Source: Asanoa siamensis
GTDB lineage: Bacteria > Actinomycetota > Actinomycetes > Mycobacteriales > Micromonosporaceae
Length of the DNA stretch: 64,000 nt
Assembly (NCBI RefSeq): GCF_016862555.1
Contig: NZ_BONE01000039.1
Location: 1-64,000, forward strand
Direction of reading: 5' to 3'
A model generated the notes under the pieces. That model was not told where the DNA came from and did no database searches. It saw only the letters and a list, made by a program, of their open reading frames with translations. How positions within the stretch are numbered: position 1 is the first letter of the stretch; each line of letters opens with the position of its first letter. Of the stretch, positions 24,886 to 32,205 are shown one piece after another. Position numbers and translations under genes: made by a program.

Positions 24886-25701
24886 ATGGACACCTGGTTC
24901 CTCACGGGCGCGTCCCGTGGCCTCGGCGCCCACTGGGCCGAGGCCATCCTCGAACGCGGCGACAACCTCGCCGCCGCGGCCCGCGATGTCGCGGCACTGA
25001 AGCCACTGACCGACCGCTACGGCGACCGGGTGCTCGCGCTCGAGCTGGACGTCACCGACCGCGCCGCGGTCGACGTCGCCGTGACCACCGCCGAGCAACG
25101 CTTCGGCGGGATCGACCTGCTGGTCAACAACGCCGGCCACATGCTGGTCGGTGCGGTGGAGGAGGTCAGCGCCGAGCAGGCCCGCGCGCAGATGGACGTC
25201 AACTACTTCGGCGCCTTGTGGACCACCCGCGCCGTGCTGCACGGCATGCGCAGCCGGCGCCGTGGCCGGATCATGCAGGTCTCCTCCCTCGGTGGCCTGA
25301 TCGCCCACCCGTCTCTGGGCATCTACCAGGCGTCGAAGTGGGCCCTCGAAGCGATGAGCCAATCGTTGGCCGCCGAGGTCGCCGCGTACGACATCCACGT
25401 CACGCTGATCGAACCGATCATGTTCCCCACCGGGCTGGCCGAATCGTCGCCCCAGGCCGCCGCGCACCCCGCGTACGCCCATGCCCGTGAAGCCCTCTAC
25501 GCGGACGCGGCCCGCTCCGGGTTCGTCCCCGGCGACCCCGCCGCCACCGCCCAGGCGATCCTCGCCCTCGCCGACACGCCGAACCCGCCGCTGCGTGTGC
25601 TGTTCGGCACCCACGGACTCGAGGCGCTGCGGACCGAGTACGCGGGCCGGCTCGCGGGACTCGAGCAGTGGGACCACCTGTCCCGCCTGGCCCAGGGATG
25701 A
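24886..25701 (+). CDS. Short-chain dehydrogenase/reductase
   Basis: A 271-residue classical SDR: TGASRGLG (NADP-binding loop, residues 8-15), NNAG, VSSLGG with the catalytic serine, and YQASK with catalytic Tyr and Lys. The C-terminal part follows the oxidoreductase subgroup often paired with XRE/MmyB regulators. The substrate is unknown. ATG 24886 follows GGGAG. Its stop lies one base from that of the convergent DapA-like gene. Confidence 0.9.
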   Translation: MDTWFLTGASRGLGAHWAEAILERGDNLAAAARDVAALKPLTDRYGDRVLALELDVTDRAAVDVAVTTAEQRFGGIDLLVNNAGHMLVGAVEEVSAEQARAQMDVNYFGALWTTRAVLHGMRSRRRGRIMQVSSLGGLIAHPSLGIYQASKWALEAMSQSLAAEVAAYDIHVTLIEPIMFPTGLAESSPQAAAHPAYAHAREALYADAARSGFVPGDPAATAQAILALADTPNPPLRVLFGTHGLEALRTEYAGRLAGLEQWDHLSRLAQG

Positions 25702-25702
25702 C

Positions 25703-26557
25703 CTAGGCCCGGGCCAGGTGGGCCAGCGCGCTGCTGATCGAATTCGGGGTGGCGGGGAGCAGCGGTGGGCGTACCGCCGGGGTGGGGATCCGGCCCTGCG
25801 CGTGCAGGACGGCCTTGACCACCGCCGGGTTGGGTTCCGCGAACAGGGCCGCGGACAGCGCGGCGAGCCGGTGGCCCAGCGGGCGGGCCCGGGGCGCGTC
25901 CCCGGCCCGCCAGGCCGCGACCAGCGCGGCGTACGAGGCCGTCGCCAGGTGGGCCGACGCGAGGATGCCGCCGTGTGCGCCCATCGCCAGCAGCGGTGAG
26001 ACGAACACGTCGTCGCCGCCGAGGACGGCGAAGTCGGGGGGCACGTCGGCGAGCAGGTCCACGGTGTCGGCGTCGATGCCCGCGGCGTGCTTGATCCCCA
26101 CCACGCCAGGCAGCGCGGCCAGGCGCCGCAGCGTGGCCGCGGACAACGGCTGCCCGGTGCGGTACGGCACGTGGTAGACGACCAGCGGCACCGGCGACGC
26201 GGCCGCCAGGCGGGCGAAGTGCGCCACCACCGCCTCCTCGCCCGGGCGCAGGAACGGTGGCACGAGGCTGAGCGCCGCGGTGACCCCGGCCAGCGGCCGC
26301 ACCTCCGCCTCGCTGTCGGCGCCGACCAGCAGGCCCGTGCCCGGGTGCTCCGCGTGGATCCCGGCGATCGTGTCGAGGACCTTCGCGCGCTCGTCCGGCG
26401 CCAGCGCCTGCGGCTCGCCGGTGGTGCCCAGGGCGACGAGGCCCGCCGCCCCGGCCGCCAGCACCTCGCGCGCCAGCGTGGCCAGCGCGTCGAACGCGAC
26501 TCCGCCGGCCGCGTCGAACGGGGTCACCAGCGGCACGTACAAACCTGTCGGTGTCAT
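25703..26557 (-). CDS. Dihydrodipicolinate synthase/N-acetylneuraminate lyase family protein
   Basis: A 284-residue class I aldolase: GTTGEPQAL (phosphate/carboxylate loop), VVYHVPYRTG with the catalytic tyrosine, and GIKHAAG with the Schiff-base lysine. NxGG-type features of biosynthetic DapA are less clear, and the divergent LysR gene argues for a catabolic or specialised aldolase rather than the housekeeping lysine enzyme. The substrate is unknown. Confidence 0.87.
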   Translation of the reverse strand: MTPTGLYVPLVTPFDAAGGVAFDALATLAREVLAAGAAGLVALGTTGEPQALAPDERAKVLDTIAGIHAEHPGTGLLVGADSEAEVRPLAGVTAALSLVPPFLRPGEEAVVAHFARLAAASPVPLVVYHVPYRTGQPLSAATLRRLAALPGVVGIKHAAGIDADTVDLLADVPPDFAVLGGDDVFVSPLLAMGAHGGILASAHLATASYAALVAAWRAGDAPRARPLGHRLAALSAALFAEPNPAVVKAVLHAQGRIPTPAVRPPLLPATPNSISSALAHLARA

Positions 26558-26574
26558 GGTTTCGAGCCTGACGG

Positions 26575-26612
26575 CCGTTGACCGTGAAGCACCAGTTCCG
26601 GTTCCTCAACGG
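26575..26612. promoter_or_regulatory. Possible LysR binding region between DapA-like and LysR genes
   Basis: CCGTTGA at 26575-26581 and its complement TCAACGG at 26606-26612 stand three helical turns apart in the 72-bp divergent region. This is a possible pair of half-sites for the LysR protein. Confidence 0.35.
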
Positions 26613-26617
26613 TTACG

Positions 26618-26623
26618 TAAGCT
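26618..26623 (+). promoter_or_regulatory. -10 box of a leaderless promoter (LysR gene)
   Basis: TAAGCT, six bases before ATG 26630, with no Shine-Dalgarno sequence. Confidence 0.45.
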
Positions 26624-26629
26624 GAGCTG

Positions 26630-27523
26630 ATGCTTGACGTCCGCCGCCTGCGGCTGTTGCGTGACCTCGCCCGGCTCGGCACGATCGCGGCCGTCTCGGA
26701 GGCGCACACCTACACGCCGTCCGCGGTGTCGCAGCAACTCGCGGCGTTGCAGCGGGAGGCCGGCGTGCGGTTGCTGGAGCGGGCCGGCCGCCGGGTCGCG
26801 CTCACCCCGACCGGAGAGGCCCTCGTCCGGCACGCCGAGGTGGTGCTCGCCGCGCTCGAGGCCGCCGACGCCACGCTCGCCGCCGCCCGGGGCGGGCTGT
26901 CCGGGACCGTACGCATCGGCGCGTACCCGAGTGCCGTGCGCACGTTGCTGCCGACCGCGCTCGTCGCCCTCGCCCGCTCGCATCCGGGGCTCCATCTGAT
27001 GGTCACCGAGCTCGACCCGGTCGATGTGCCCGACGCGCTGCGCGGCCGCCGCCTCGACGTGGCTTTGCTGCACGACTACGACATCGTGCCGGTCGAGCCG
27101 GACCCGGCGCTCGACTCGACGCCGCTGCTCGACGAGACGGTCTATCTGGCGCTGCCGGCGACCCACGCGTACGACGGCGCCGACCCGCTGCGGTCGGCGC
27201 GCACCGCCGCCTGGATCGTCGGCACTCCTGGCACGCTCTGCCACACGGTCGCCCTGCACGCGTGCGAGCTGGCCGGTTTCCGGCCTGAGGTGCACCACCA
27301 CGCCGACGACTTCGCCGCCGTGCTCGCCCTCGTCGCCGCGGGCCACGGTGTCGGCCTGGTGCCGCAGCTCGCGGTCGGCCAGCCACCGCCGGGTGTCGAG
27401 CTGGTGCCGTTGACCGTCCGGCGGCGCACGAGGGTCGCCTTCCGGCGCGGCTCGGGTGACCACCCCGCGGTCGCGGCCTGCGTCAGGGCGCTGGGGGCCG
27501 CGGCCGCGGCGGTGTTCGCCTGA
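26630..27523 (+). CDS. LysR-family transcriptional regulator
   Basis: A 297-residue LysR regulator. The HTH (residues 1-60) is of the LysR type (LGTIAAVSEAHTYTPSAVSQ, then QLAALQREAGVRLLERAGR), followed by the linker helix and a two-lobed substrate domain (TVRIGAYPSAVRTLLP, ALVAAGHGVGLVPQLAV). It is divergent from the DapA-like aldolase gene and probably controls it. Confidence 0.92.
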   Translation: MLDVRRLRLLRDLARLGTIAAVSEAHTYTPSAVSQQLAALQREAGVRLLERAGRRVALTPTGEALVRHAEVVLAALEAADATLAAARGGLSGTVRIGAYPSAVRTLLPTALVALARSHPGLHLMVTELDPVDVPDALRGRRLDVALLHDYDIVPVEPDPALDSTPLLDETVYLALPATHAYDGADPLRSARTAAWIVGTPGTLCHTVALHACELAGFRPEVHHHADDFAAVLALVAAGHGVGLVPQLAVGQPPPGVELVPLTVRRRTRVAFRRGSGDHPAVAACVRALGAAAAAVFA

Positions 27524-27993: not shown

Positions 27994-28710
27994 ATGCAGA
28001 TCATCGAAGTCACGGATCTCGCCGTACGCTCGGCCGTCATCCGACTGCGGCGCCAGGGATCGGCGCTCCAGTTCGTGCTCTACCCGATGATCCACATGGC
28101 CAAGCCGACGTTCTACGCGGCGGTGGCCAAGCGGCTGCGGACGGCCGACATCGTCGTGGCGGAGGGCGTCGGCGGCGCGGGCGGCGGGAAGCATTCGGTG
28201 CTGGTCGGCGCGTTGACGCTCAGCTACACGGTGCTGCGCTTCAACCGCCGGGCGCAGTTGGTGCGGCAGGACATCGACTACCAGGCACTCGGGGTGCCGG
28301 TGGTCCGGCCGGACGTGACCGCGGACGAGTTCGCGGCGGGGTGGCGCCGGATTCCGCTGGCCTTCAGGCTGACGATGTGGGCGGTGCTCCCGCTGGTGCT
28401 GATCACCCGGCTGTTCGGCGGCACGCGGGCGATCTGGTCGCATTCGATGGAGACCAACGACCTGCCCCTGACCCACCAGGAGGAGGAGGACAACGACCTG
28501 CCGGAGGCGCTGGAGGCGGCGTTCCTCGGCTCACGCGACGAACGCTTGGTGGCGGCACTCTGCCGCCTGCACGAGCAACGCGGCGACGACCCGATCGAGG
28601 TAGCGGTCGTCTACGGCGCGGGCCACACACCGGCGATCGTCCACGGCCTGATCCAGAGGTACGGCTACCGCCCACGAGCCGCCGACTGGCTGACGATCGC
28701 GGACCTGTGA
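27994..28710 (+). CDS. TraB/PrgY-like domain protein
   Basis: A 238-residue protein. The start (FVLYPMIHMAKPTFYAAVAK with ADIVVAEGVGG) and the end (IEVAVVYGAGHTPAIVHGLI, then YGYRPRAADWLTI) match the first and last conserved blocks of the TraB/Tiki superfamily, which in some members are metalloprotease-like. A hydrophobic segment (RLTMWAVLPLVLITRLFGG) sits in the middle. Biological role is unknown. It overlaps the grpB remnant by four bases (GTGA). Confidence 0.6.
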   Translation: MQIIEVTDLAVRSAVIRLRRQGSALQFVLYPMIHMAKPTFYAAVAKRLRTADIVVAEGVGGAGGGKHSVLVGALTLSYTVLRFNRRAQLVRQDIDYQALGVPVVRPDVTADEFAAGWRRIPLAFRLTMWAVLPLVLITRLFGGTRAIWSHSMETNDLPLTHQEEEDNDLPEALEAAFLGSRDERLVAALCRLHEQRGDDPIEVAVVYGAGHTPAIVHGLIQRYGYRPRAADWLTIADL

Positions 28711-28834
28711 ACCGCCGGGACCCGATCAGAATCGTCGCATACGATCCACAGTGGCCGGTCATCTGCGCGGTCGTGCGATCCCGAATCGAGGCGGCCATCG
28801 GCCCCGCCCAGCGGGCCCGATCGACCACATCGGC
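28707..28834 (+). pseudogene. Truncated and frameshifted grpB (UPF0157) remnant
   Basis: GTG 28707 overlaps the previous stop, as in an intact operon. The first ~37 codons read NRRDPIRIVAYDPQWPVICA and VVRSRIEAAIG, the N-terminus of GrpB-family proteins. Near 28817 the frame shifts by one base, after which ARIDHIG, the next conserved GrpB block (usually HIGSTxVPGL), can be read. The similarity then stops exactly where the repeat array begins. The remaining ~130 residues of the family are absent from the window. Confidence 0.6.
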
Positions 28835-29345
28835 ATTGCGGACCGGGAGCTGGCGCGGGCCCGTTGCCGTGACCGTAACCCGGCGGCGGGCTCGTCTGGC
28901 GCGCGCACGTCAGCACGCCTTGCGGCCTGGGAGCCGGCGGGCTCACTCGGCAGGTCCGCGCGGACCCGCCGCCGTGACCGCAACCGGCGGCGGGCTCGTC
29001 TAGCGCGCGCACGTCAGCACGGCTTGCGGACCGGGAGTCGACGGGCCCATTCTCCGCAGATCTGCGCCAGCCCGTCGCCGCGTCCGCAGCCGGCGGCGGG
29101 TGCGTCTGGTGGGCCCGCGCCAGCAGGTCTTGCCGACACGGAGCCGGCAGGTCGTTGGGCGCAGGTCCGCGCGAGCCCGCCACCGCGACCGCGATAGCCG
29201 GCGGGCTCGTCCGGCGCGCCCACACCAGCAGGTCTTGCGCACCGGGAGCCGGCGCGCTCGTCCGGCACAGGTCCGCGCGACCCGCCGCCCCGACCGCGCA
29301 GCCGCCGGCGCGGAGTCGTCCAGTGCGAGCCCGCCGCCCGCGCGG
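28831..29345. repeat. Array of five imperfect ~105-bp tandem repeats
   Basis: This 515-base stretch has no credible gene. Units: 28831-28913 (83 bp, lacking about 21 bp internally), 28914-29017 (104), 29018-29123 (106), 29124-29228 (105) and 29229 to about 29340 (degenerate at its end). Each unit begins with CTTGCG.ACCGGGAGCCGGC, continues with a block like CAGGTCCGCGCG, and ends near GGGCTCGTC..GCGCGC followed by CAG. Most units hold a stem: 28965-28974 with 28985-28994 (10 bp), 29172-29181 with 29200-29209 (10 bp), with G-T pairs in units 1 and 3. It starts inside grpB and ends at the uvrA-like stop codon. No unique spacers are present, so it is not CRISPR. Confidence 0.8.
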
Positions 29346-31712
29346 CTAGCCCACGTATTCCGCCAGATGCTTGCCCGTCAACGTCGACTTCGCCGCCACC
29401 AGGTCGGCCGGAGTGCCCTCGAAGACGATCTGGCCGCCGTCGTGGCCGGCGCCCGGGCCCAGGTCGATGATCCAGTCCGCGTGGGCCATGACGGCCTGGT
29501 GGTGTTCGATGACGATGACCGACTTGCCCGTGTCGACCAGGCGGTCGAGGAGGCCCAGCAACTGTTCCACGTCGGCCAGGTGCAGGCCCGTCGTCGGCTC
29601 GTCGAGGATGTAGACCCCGCCCTTCTCGCCCATGCGGGTCGCCAGCTTCAGGCGCTGCCTTTCACCGCCCGAGAGGGTCGTCAGCGGCTGGCCCAGCGTC
29701 AGGTAGCCGAGACCCACGTCGGCCAGGCGTGACAGGATCTGGTGCGCCGCCGGGGTTTTCGCGTCGCCCGACCCGAAGAACTCCTCGGCCTCCGTCACCG
29801 ACATCGCCAGCACCTCGCTGATGTCGCGGCCGCCCAGGTGGTAGTCGAGCACCGACGCGTCGAAGCGCTTGCCCTCGCAGTCTTCGCACGTTGTCGCGAC
29901 GCCCGCCATCATGCCCAGGTCGGTGTAGATGACGCCCGCGCCGTTGCAGGTGGGGCAGGCGCCCTCCGAGTTGGCGCTGAACAGCGCCGGCTTCACCCCG
30001 TTGGCCTTCGCGAAAGCCTTGCGGATCGGCTCCAGCAGGCCCGTGTAGGTCGCCGGGTTGCTCCGCCGCGAACCGCGGATCGCACCCTGGTCGACCGTCA
30101 CCACGCCCTCGCGGTCGGCGACCGAGCCGTGCACCAGGGAGCTCTTGCCCGAACCCGCCACGCCGGTCAGGACGACGAGCACGCCGAGCGGGATGTCGAC
30201 GTCGACGTCCCGCAGGTTGTGCAGGTTGGCACCGCGCACCTCTAGCGCGCCCGACGGCTTGCGTACCGACGGCTTCAGGGATGCCCGGTCGTCGAGGTGG
30301 CGGCCGGTCAGCGTGCCGCTCGCGCGCAGGCCGTCGACCGTGCCCTCGAAGACGACCTCGCCGCCCGCGGTGCCGGCGCCCGGCCCCAGGTCGACGACGT
30401 GGTCGGCGATCGCGATCGCCTCGGGCTTGTGCTCGACGACGAGCACCGTGTTGCCCTTGTCGCGCAGCTGCACCAGCAGGCCGTTCATCCGGGCGATGTC
30501 GTGCGGGTGCAGGCCGATCGTGGGCTCGTCGAAGACGTAGGTCACGTCGGTCAGCGACGAACCCAGGTGCCGGATCATCTTGGTGCGCTGCGCCTCGCCG
30601 CCCGAGAGCGTGCCCGACGGCCGGTCGAGCGACAGGTAGCCCAGCCCGATCTCGGCGAACGAGTCGAGCAGGTGCTGCAACCCGCTCAGCAGCGGGGCCA
30701 CGGAGGGGTCGTCGATGCCGCGTACCCAGGAGGCCAGGTCGCTGATCTGCATCGACGAGATGTCGGCGATGTTCTTGCCCTTGATCTTCGACGACCGCGC
30801 CTCGGCGGCCAGCCGGGTGCCCGCGCAGTCGGGGCAGATCGTGAACGTGACGGCCCGCTCGACGAACGCGCGGATGTGCGGCTGCAGCGCGTCGACGTCC
30901 TTGGAGAGCATCGACTTCTGGATCTTGGGGATCAGGCCTTCGTACGTCAGGTTGATGCCCTCGACCTTGATCTTGGTCGGTTCCTTGTGCAGCAGGTCGT
31001 GCAGCTCCCGCTTGTTGTATTTGGAGATCGGCTTGTCGGCGTCGAAGAAGCCGCTGCCGCGGAAGATCCGGCCGTACCACCCGTCCATGCTGTAGCCGGG
31101 CACCGTCAGCGCGCCCTCGTTGAGCGACTTGCTGGCGTCATAGAGCTGGGTCAGGTCCATGTCGTTGACCGAGCCCATGCCCTCGCACCGCGGGCACATG
31201 CCGCCCAACCGGTTGAAGGTCGCCTTCTCGGCCTTGGTCTTGCCGCCGCGCTCGACCGTGATCGCGCCGCTGGCCCGCACCGACGGCACGTTGAACGAGA
31301 ACGCGTTGGGTGGCCCGATGTGCGGCTGGCCCAGCCGGCTGAACAGGATGCGCAGCATGGCGTTGGCGTCGGTGGCGGTGCCGACCGTGGAGCGGGGGTT
31401 CGCGCCCATCCGCTCCTGGTCGACGATGATCGCCGTGGTCAGGCCGTCGAGGAGGTCGACCTCCGGCCGCGCGAGCGTCGGCATGAAACCCTGCACGAAC
31501 GCGCTGTAGGTCTCGTTGATCATCCGCTGCGACTCGGCGGCGATCGTGTCGAAGACCAGCGAGCTCTTGCCCGAGCCGGACACGCCGGTGAAGACCGTCA
31601 GGCGGCGCTTCGGGATCTCGACGCTGACGTCCTTGAGGTTGTTCTCGCGGGCGCCTTGCACACGAATCAGGTCGTGGCTGTCGGCGAGGTGCGTCGAGGC
31701 GGTCTTGCTCAT
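29346..31712 (-). CDS. UvrA-like excision/drug-resistance ABC ATPase (UvrA paralogue)
   Basis: A 788-residue protein with two ABC ATPase halves: Walker A GVSGSGKSS and GVAGSGKSS, signatures LSGGEAQR and LSGGERQR, Walker B VFDEPTIGLH and ILDEPTTGLH, and zinc-finger cysteines (CPRCEGMG; CPTCNGAG; CEDCEGK). It is shorter than housekeeping UvrA (~950), as in the UvrA2/DrrC group, which helps strains tolerate DNA-binding drugs. No uvrB or uvrC lies nearby. ATG 31712 follows GGAGC; the frame is open further upstream without support. Confidence 0.92.
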   Translation of the reverse strand: MSKTASTHLADSHDLIRVQGARENNLKDVSVEIPKRRLTVFTGVSGSGKSSLVFDTIAAESQRMINETYSAFVQGFMPTLARPEVDLLDGLTTAIIVDQERMGANPRSTVGTATDANAMLRILFSRLGQPHIGPPNAFSFNVPSVRASGAITVERGGKTKAEKATFNRLGGMCPRCEGMGSVNDMDLTQLYDASKSLNEGALTVPGYSMDGWYGRIFRGSGFFDADKPISKYNKRELHDLLHKEPTKIKVEGINLTYEGLIPKIQKSMLSKDVDALQPHIRAFVERAVTFTICPDCAGTRLAAEARSSKIKGKNIADISSMQISDLASWVRGIDDPSVAPLLSGLQHLLDSFAEIGLGYLSLDRPSGTLSGGEAQRTKMIRHLGSSLTDVTYVFDEPTIGLHPHDIARMNGLLVQLRDKGNTVLVVEHKPEAIAIADHVVDLGPGAGTAGGEVVFEGTVDGLRASGTLTGRHLDDRASLKPSVRKPSGALEVRGANLHNLRDVDVDIPLGVLVVLTGVAGSGKSSLVHGSVADREGVVTVDQGAIRGSRRSNPATYTGLLEPIRKAFAKANGVKPALFSANSEGACPTCNGAGVIYTDLGMMAGVATTCEDCEGKRFDASVLDYHLGGRDISEVLAMSVTEAEEFFGSGDAKTPAAHQILSRLADVGLGYLTLGQPLTTLSGGERQRLKLATRMGEKGGVYILDEPTTGLHLADVEQLLGLLDRLVDTGKSVIVIEHHQAVMAHADWIIDLGPGAGHDGGQIVFEGTPADLVAAKSTLTGKHLAEYVG

Positions 31713-31794
31713 CGGTGCTCCATCCGTTTCGGCGGGAATTCGCTGCGTACGGGCAGGGTTTGGCCATGCTACGCGGCCGGTACGACGTTTCCGC

Positions 31795-32205
31795 TCAGCG
31801 GACCTCGTTGATCCGCACCTGGTTGCCGGCGGGGTCACGGAAGGCGCAGTCGCGTACGCCCCATGGCTGGTCGGTCGGCTCCTGGGCCACCTCGGCGCCC
31901 GCGTCGCGGATCTTCGCGAAGGTGGCGTCGAGGTCGGCGGTCGCCAGCACGATGCTGGCGTAGCTGCCCTTGGCCATCATCTCGCCGATGATCCGGCGCT
32001 CGTCGTCGGTCGTGCTCGGGTCCACGGCGGGCGGCGTCAGCACGATCGCGGTGCCGGCCGGGTCGGTCGGGCCCACGGTGATCCACCGCATGGTGCCCTG
32101 CCCGACGTCGTTGTGCACCGTGAAGCCGAGGGCGTCGCGGTAGAAGGCCAGAGACTTTTCGGGATCGGTGTGCGGGAGAAATGTCCAGCGAATGGTGAGT
32201 TCCAT
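31795..32205 (-). CDS. VOC (glyoxalase/bleomycin-resistance fold) protein
   Basis: A 136-residue single VOC domain: TIRWTFLPHTDPEKSLAFYR, DALGFTVHNDVG, WITVGPTDPAGTAIVL, and the C-terminal AQEPTDQPWGVRDCAFRDPA, GNQVRINEV. The family includes lyases, dioxygenases and drug-binding proteins; the activity is undefined. ATG 32205 is preceded at seven bases by TAGCGT (leaderless layout). Confidence 0.87.
   Translation of the reverse strand: MELTIRWTFLPHTDPEKSLAFYRDALGFTVHNDVGQGTMRWITVGPTDPAGTAIVLTPPAVDPSTTDDERRIIGEMMAKGSYASIVLATADLDATFAKIRDAGAEVAQEPTDQPWGVRDCAFRDPAGNQVRINEVR

Follow-up and report, generated by a model that had tools for sequence, protein, structure and literature searches.

MIRU-VNTR loci of mycobacteria consist of intergenic tandem units of ~50-100 bp in a GC-rich actinobacterium, the MIRUs forming related families across loci, and BIMEs are said to bind host proteins. 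REPs are dispersed, high-copy families of 20-40 bp (PMC3733652, PMC1525189) that lie mainly between convergent and codirectional genes (PMC3733652), and gaps rich in them have been discussed in terms of supercoiling (PMC1525189). A survey of prokaryotic satellites reported very few of them in most species, and described those with long units as mostly multiples of three in length and likely coding (PMC6749651). The G-rich repeats of Xanthomonas and Nostoc are heptamers of one shared sequence and have been examined by the orientation of the neighbouring genes, which are mostly codirectional in Xanthomonas and show no clear convergent preference in Nostoc (11% convergent vs 9% divergent) in the data given there (PMC4692102). 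We found no report of tandem arrays in convergent gaps in the open-access literature searched.

Here we analysed a repeat array in a 64,000-nt stretch of DNA from Asanoa siamensis (the window), whose informative feature is its location between convergent genes. As in MIRU-VNTR loci, its tandem units are intergenic and belong to a GC-rich actinobacterium, but no relatives of the unit were found; as at an intrinsic terminator, a GC-rich inverted repeat lies downstream of genes, but there is no T run and the stem is not conserved. Like the non-coding members of the long-unit satellites, which are often unique and scattered, the array is composed of non-coding, head-to-tail units longer than 30 nt (PMC6749651). 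Flank orientation is not discussed in the part of that survey drawn on here, whereas the arrays of this genus are strongly biased toward convergent gaps; their density by our TRF criterion, 9.7 per Mb (24 arrays in 2.46 Mb), is not directly comparable with the survey (PMC6749651). The array resembles REPs and BIMEs in its convergent placement, its palindrome and the G-T pairs of its stem, but differs from them in a unit of 105 bp, in having copies at one locus only in its own genome and in a palindrome that is not maintained, being lost in unit 5 (PMC3733652, PMC1525189). With the Xanthomonas and Nostoc repeats it shares the non-coding, intergenic, tandem arrangement, but not the shared heptamer (PMC4692102).

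The array is made up of five head-to-tail units of 84, 104, 105, 106 and 111 bp at 28836-29345, with the unit boundaries set at a recurrent TTGCGG:

28836-28919, plus strand: repeat unit 1, 84 bp, without ~21 bp in its first half
28920-29023, plus strand: repeat unit 2, 104 bp
29024-29128, plus strand: repeat unit 3, 105 bp
29129-29234, plus strand: repeat unit 4, 106 bp
29235-29345, plus strand: repeat unit 5, on average the most diverged, with a ragged end that reaches the stop codon of the uvrA-like gene

TRF placed the array at 28853-29297 (period 105, 4.2 copies, score 468) as the strongest tandem repeat of the window, the other 10 TRF rows scoring at most 67, and a repeat search found in-register copies spaced by 104, 106 and 105. 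A profile built from the five units matched each of them and had no other hit below E 0.1 in a 2.46 Mb sample of the genus or in the further loci examined. The ungapped self-match score of the array was 49, whereas none of 19 dinucleotide shuffles exceeded 14.5, so that the similarity of the units exceeds GC-rich low complexity, which the earlier note had named as a possible source of it; the G+C content of the window is 70-75% throughout, and the genome comprises 8.78 Mb in 219 contigs. A crude offset scan of the entire region gave no offset above 45% identity, since small indels shift the units. The description of the array in the earlier note as five imperfect direct repeats of ~105 bp is thus confirmed by TRF, repeat search, profile and shuffles, with the exact unit lengths corrected to those given above. 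The units are diverged, as had also been stated, with pairwise identities of 0.69-0.89; the highest value belongs to the neighbouring units 1 and 2 (0.89) and all other pairs lie at 0.69-0.78, a pattern that local duplication in steps, with drift, could produce. The array is not a coding repeat, because the unit lengths break any reading frame and the variable columns of the five units show no codon phase (16/34, 17/35 and 19/35 in the three phases).

The gap that holds the array (28711-29345, 635 bases) is bounded by two genes that point into it, and it begins with the remnant of a third:

27994-28710, plus strand: upstream flanking gene, an ORF of 238 aa pointing into the gap
28711-28835, plus strand: frameshifted 5' remnant of grpB, identified by a PF04229 match and by alignment with the grpB of a congener, G003
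29346-31838, minus strand: UvrA-like ABC ATPase paralogue, 830 aa from its longest start, pointing into the gap (convergent)

The 238-aa protein had no match to Pfam at E up to 0.1 and none to NCBIfam at E up to 0.01, and the label "TraB-like" that it had been given before finds no support in either collection. The gene is patchy in the family, with matches in 16 of the 61 genomes searched, its own included; relatives with 69-70% identity occur in Actinoplanes lutulentus, Paractinoplanes polyasparticus and one Micromonosporaceae MAG. The UvrA-like protein matches PF00005, and PF17755 at E 0.019 only; its score against TIGR00630, 688.1 bits, is below the cut-off of 729.8. The earlier note had the array fill the whole gap, yet the first 125 bases are the grpB remnant, which opens in the frame RDPIRIVAYDPQWP..., suffers a frameshift and continues to a DHIG motif. 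PF04229 matches the remnant at E=5.8e-5 with the two frames read together and at 0.061 for one frame. Clear nucleotide similarity to the intact grpB of G003 ends at CACATCGGCA, at the start of the array. The syntenic place in G003 holds the 238-aa gene, an opposite-strand ORF (923-1492 of L022), the intact grpB and the UvrA-like gene. In A. siamensis grpB is thus broken, with its 3' part gone or unrecognisable. The GrpB family has three other matches in the same genome.

We also considered whether the unit derives from the coding sequence of grpB: by eye, unit 1 looked like the part of grpB that follows the HIG codons, and a loose, gappy alignment ran into the array. This origin was rejected, as the array and every unit scored within dinucleotide shuffles when compared with the G003 grpB plus gap. 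The best unit was unit 4, which was equalled by 26 of 300 shuffles, and the score of the array was matched or exceeded by 285 of 361 control stretches. These comparisons revealed no source sequence for the unit, which is detectably neither grpB nor the G003 gap.

We searched for further copies of the unit in its own genome, in congeners and across the family. BLAST of the array against its own genome returned nothing else convincing among the best 40 of 448 candidates; there were 46 other short matches with E 1.7e-4 or weaker, including one to the opposite strand of the array itself, and TRF on 19 loci of these matches gave no period near 105. The best 40 candidates from each of five congeners contained nothing at E 1e-6. 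A covariance model of the units recovered all five of them, with E from 1.2e-12 to 5.6e-5, and no further site at E up to 0.1 among the best 150 of ~25,000-27,000 candidates in each of six genomes. Across the family, BLAST with the best two candidates per genome gave a match at E<=1e-4 in 75 of 354 genomes, its own included; outside that genome the matches were pieces of ~30-140 bp, and of 29 such loci run through TRF five had a 45-bp array and none a period near 105. These short matches, which were not each looked at singly, were rejected as members of a dispersed family and attributed to GC-rich chance or coding sequence. The array is therefore specific to one locus among the genomes searched. 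The statement in the earlier note that it belongs to no known repeat class agrees with these searches, in which no dispersed class and no further copy in the same genome or five congeners was found; the copies in relatives on which that note had made its own reading depend were not seen by BLAST of these genomes.

A GC-rich inverted repeat had been ascribed to every unit. It is clear in four of them:

28860-28890, plus strand: inverted repeat of unit 1, 10 pairs including two G-T, fold z -1.21
28965-28994, plus strand: inverted repeat of unit 2, 10 Watson-Crick pairs, fold z -2.15
29071-29100, plus strand: inverted repeat of unit 3, 10 pairs including one G-T, fold z -0.95
29173-29208, plus strand: inverted repeat of unit 4, 9 pairs, shifted outward, fold z -1.54

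In unit 5 the stem is broken and only a weak alternative forms (fold z +0.65). The z-scores, computed on 55-56-nt pieces of the units, fall below -2 in unit 2 only. The G-T pairs reported for units 1 and 3 are present; they amount to three C-to-T changes on one arm, uncompensated on the other. The covariance analysis suggested in the earlier note gave no support for a stem kept in RNA: 0 of 14 core-stem pairs changed on both sides (five related rows, giving low power), core-stem pairing was 85.5% both in the units and on average in shuffles, and the covariation score was 0.107 vs 0.117 in shuffles. Sliding the stem partner lowered pairing to 35-51%, as is expected of an inverted repeat picked from the same sequences. 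When whole units were given to RNAalifold (five rows), a double change was seen in 2 of 32 pairs and the covariation term was unfavourable, +3.13. No terminator-like site with a T run is present on either strand of 28600-29500, and the three Rfam matches in this region are all far below their gathering scores. Conservation of the stem for RNA is not supported, because there is no compensatory change and unit 5 has no stem.

We then placed the array among the gaps of the genus, using 120 stretches of 20 kb from four species (one genome per species: G000 and G001, 800 kb each; G003 and G005, 400 kb each) which together with the window make up 2.46 Mb. Three of the 120 stretches (L172, L182 and L252) had been picked for a known locus and the rest by contig and coordinate, and genes were called with our own codon-usage model, not curated. 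Counting TRF arrays with a period of at least 50 and a score of at least 150 in gaps of 100-1200 bp, and excluding the array of the window, we found convergent gaps to be occupied in 16 of 88 cases, codirectional gaps in 8 of 374 and divergent gaps in 0 of 268 (Fisher p 1.8e-10, convergent vs rest); this full count supersedes one on about half of the sample with the window included (6/36, 3/127 and 0/104). One of the 16 convergent arrays comes from the preselected stretch L252. By species the convergent counts were 4/27 (G000), 7/31 (G001), 0/15 (G003) and 5/15 (G005), and the lack of TRF arrays in the convergent gaps of G003 implies that the genus is not uniform in this process. A self-match test of higher sensitivity, applied to the first 800 bp of each gap of 150-1200 bp, detected repeats in 26 of 66 convergent gaps (27/67 with the window), 19 of 247 codirectional gaps and 2 of 194 divergent gaps; the convergent hits include a G003 gap in L172 that was known beforehand. 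Permuting the self-match hits within genomes gave 6.1 convergent hits on average and never more than 16 in 20,000 trials. The excess persisted after 150 bp per promoter had been set aside, at 0.94 vs 0.40 arrays per kb for convergent vs codirectional gaps by self-match (p 0.0049) and 0.58 vs 0.15 per kb for TRF arrays (p 0.0018). The flanking genes proved real wherever they were scanned: six sampled convergent arrays have 12 neighbours, and Pfam domains occurred in every one of the ten that were scanned; examples of such flanks are a 3-dehydroquinate synthase opposite GT87 and a LysR opposite an MmyB-like regulator. In a small out-group sample of loci fetched for other reasons, the self-match test found repeats in 1/16 convergent, 3/38 codirectional and 0/22 divergent gaps of other genera of the family (75 loci), and in 0/1, 1/10 and 0/1, respectively, of other families of the order (16 loci). 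The density of arrays may be special to this genus.

The array of the window shares what characterizes this set, being a long-period array of locus-specific sequence in a 3'-3' gap. With the window included, the periods of the 17 convergent arrays extend from 51 to 156 bp. Of these periods 11, the 105 of the window among them, are multiples of three (p 0.008), and in none of the 17 arrays do the mismatches show a codon phase (p 0.20 or more); among eight codirectional arrays there is one with such a phase (p 0.01). Helical phasing (105 bp as 10 turns) was considered for the period and dropped, the other periods having no evident common step (not formally compared). Copies are near-identical in some of the sampled convergent arrays (offset identity 0.93 and 0.98) and strongly diverged in others, a spread that fits a picture of birth and decay. 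The mean fold z of 17 convergent arrays is -0.20, equal to that of 150 coding tiles (-0.20), and 50 array-free convergent gaps average -0.81. Seven codirectional arrays have a mean fold z of -2.46. Four codirectional arrays fold better than shuffles (z -1.2 to -6.8; L150 15375-15524, L199 6957-7115, L179 2599-2790 and L139 2404-2580), in contrast to the majority of convergent arrays, and are possibly a second, hairpin-based kind.

When 48 gaps with repeats were compared with each other by BLAST, 19 matched another at E<=1e-3 (17 in one cluster and 2 in another) and 29, including that of the window, did not; the best match of the window gap was 32 bp at E 0.003. Many of the cross-gap matches represent one dispersed palindrome of ~90 bp, which lies inside the array in 3 of 25 TRF gaps. 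This REP-like palindrome has 41 profile hits at E up to 1e-3 in the 2.46 Mb (20 in G000, 9 in G005, 6 in G001 and 6 in G003), of which 20 are in convergent gaps, 16 in codirectional gaps, 1 in a divergent gap, 2 in gene calls and 2 at edges. Examples are L178 15293-15387 (minus strand), L193 2168-2269 (plus strand) and L136 5364-5454 (plus strand), and the palindrome stands in tandem at L238 9751-10010. It has no hit in the window, with a best E of 0.63 in the window gap, and no Rfam match at the gathering score in the four stretches scanned.

By our own gene calls, the 3' gap of the UvrA-like gene is convergent in four of six genomes of the genus (G000, G002, G003 and G004), and all four of these gaps contain repeats, with offsets of 104, 56, 104 and 54, respectively. 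In the syntenic gap of G003 (L101 3809-4073) the repeat is a diverged two-copy one with offset 104, missed by TRF; its self score is 64 or 69, depending on the split used, and shuffles average 23 and reach 35 at most. It has no sequence similarity to the array of the window.

Several other explanations of the array have to be weighed against these results. The units might fold once transcribed and stop read-through between the convergent genes, as a bidirectional terminator of several hairpins or another structured RNA. Such a role would suit an array between two 3' ends, the GC-rich inverted repeat of units 1-4 and the G-T pairs of units 1 and 3, which preserve a plus-strand stem; but the core stem shows no compensatory change and pairs no better than shuffled rows, the few double changes across whole units come with an unfavourable covariation term, unit 5 lacks the stem, neither a T-run terminator nor an Rfam match at gathering score is found, and convergent arrays as a class fold like coding tiles, less well than array-free convergent gaps. 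We consider this quite unlikely. Alternatively, the array could act as DNA, through bound proteins, as has been said of BIMEs, or through topology, its repeated sites absorbing positive supercoils or insulating the genes, so that the position would be fixed and the sequence free. The convergent bias does exceed what promoter avoidance accounts for, unrelated repeats occupy the same position in two species, and the literature links convergent gaps to positive supercoils (PMC8360656) and REPs to convergent gaps (PMC1525189). No shared motif was seen, however: the 32-bp match is the only one of the window gap, the dispersed palindrome is missing from it, and 40 of 67 convergent gaps have no array by self-match. 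An action at the DNA level is unlikely in our judgement.

The two remaining explanations concern where the unit came from. A decayed gene or other coding region with 35-residue repeats (105 = 3 x 35) would leave a main unit of 105 bp, and the adjoining decayed grpB, the excess of multiples of three among the convergent periods and the largely coding nature ascribed to long-unit satellites with such lengths (PMC6749651) all lean toward it. This coding relic is nevertheless very improbable, being largely refuted by unit lengths that break any frame, variable columns spread evenly over the phases and units no closer to the G003 grpB than shuffles are. As for an inserted copy of a dispersed or mobile repeat family, the genus does carry one such element, the ~90-bp palindrome, even in tandem at L238; this element is absent from the window gap, and neither BLAST nor the profile nor the covariance model detected another copy of the unit in the genomes searched. 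Unless its source lies outside these genomes or below the filters of the first look, an insertion is refuted, and we give it next to no credence.

We consider it likely that the array is a locus-specific, non-coding minisatellite that arose by tandem duplication in a promoter-free 3'-3' gap and is one of a set that recurs in the genus. A stretch of ~105 bp between the convergent genes, adjoining the decaying grpB, would have been duplicated in tandem several times, presumably by slippage or unequal exchange, and the copies would then have drifted apart. The gap would tolerate such duplication since no promoter or ribosome-binding site is affected, and the rate of duplication may be higher where transcription converges and positive supercoils gather. 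Across the genus, arrays mostly differing in sequence would arise, age and be replaced, mainly in 3'-3' gaps. A selected function of the array is not required. The orientation bias itself may be caused by relaxed constraint, by supercoiling or by function. Relaxed constraint explains why divergent gaps are empty; it accounts less fully for the excess of convergent over codirectional gaps that remains, two-fold or larger, and on its own predicts a smaller difference between the two than is seen. The 11 of 17 periods that are multiples of three likewise count against the minisatellite reading, as slippage in non-coding DNA does not predict them.

In both E. coli and yeast, the DNA between convergent genes is enriched in positive supercoils (PMC8360656). 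Given this enrichment elsewhere, it is attractive to suppose that convergent transcription may raise the duplication rate. Tentatively, and with more doubt than belief, we extend the minisatellite reading to the proposal that convergent gene ends are hot spots of continual array birth, either through duplication raised by head-on transcription and trapped positive supercoils or through the keeping of arrays as sequence-independent insulators; the arrays of the window and of the syntenic G003 gap would then represent two independent births.

On its own the array, an old minisatellite, matters little, and a single GC-rich array with stems calls for caution before a new RNA element is named. It is an ordinary member of the set of convergent-gap arrays. 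As one of this set, it belongs to a genus that carries arrays in about a fifth (16/88) to about two fifths (26/66) of its convergent gaps and in almost none of its divergent gaps, and the set offers a natural test between convergent transcription driving tandem duplication and selection for arrays between gene ends.
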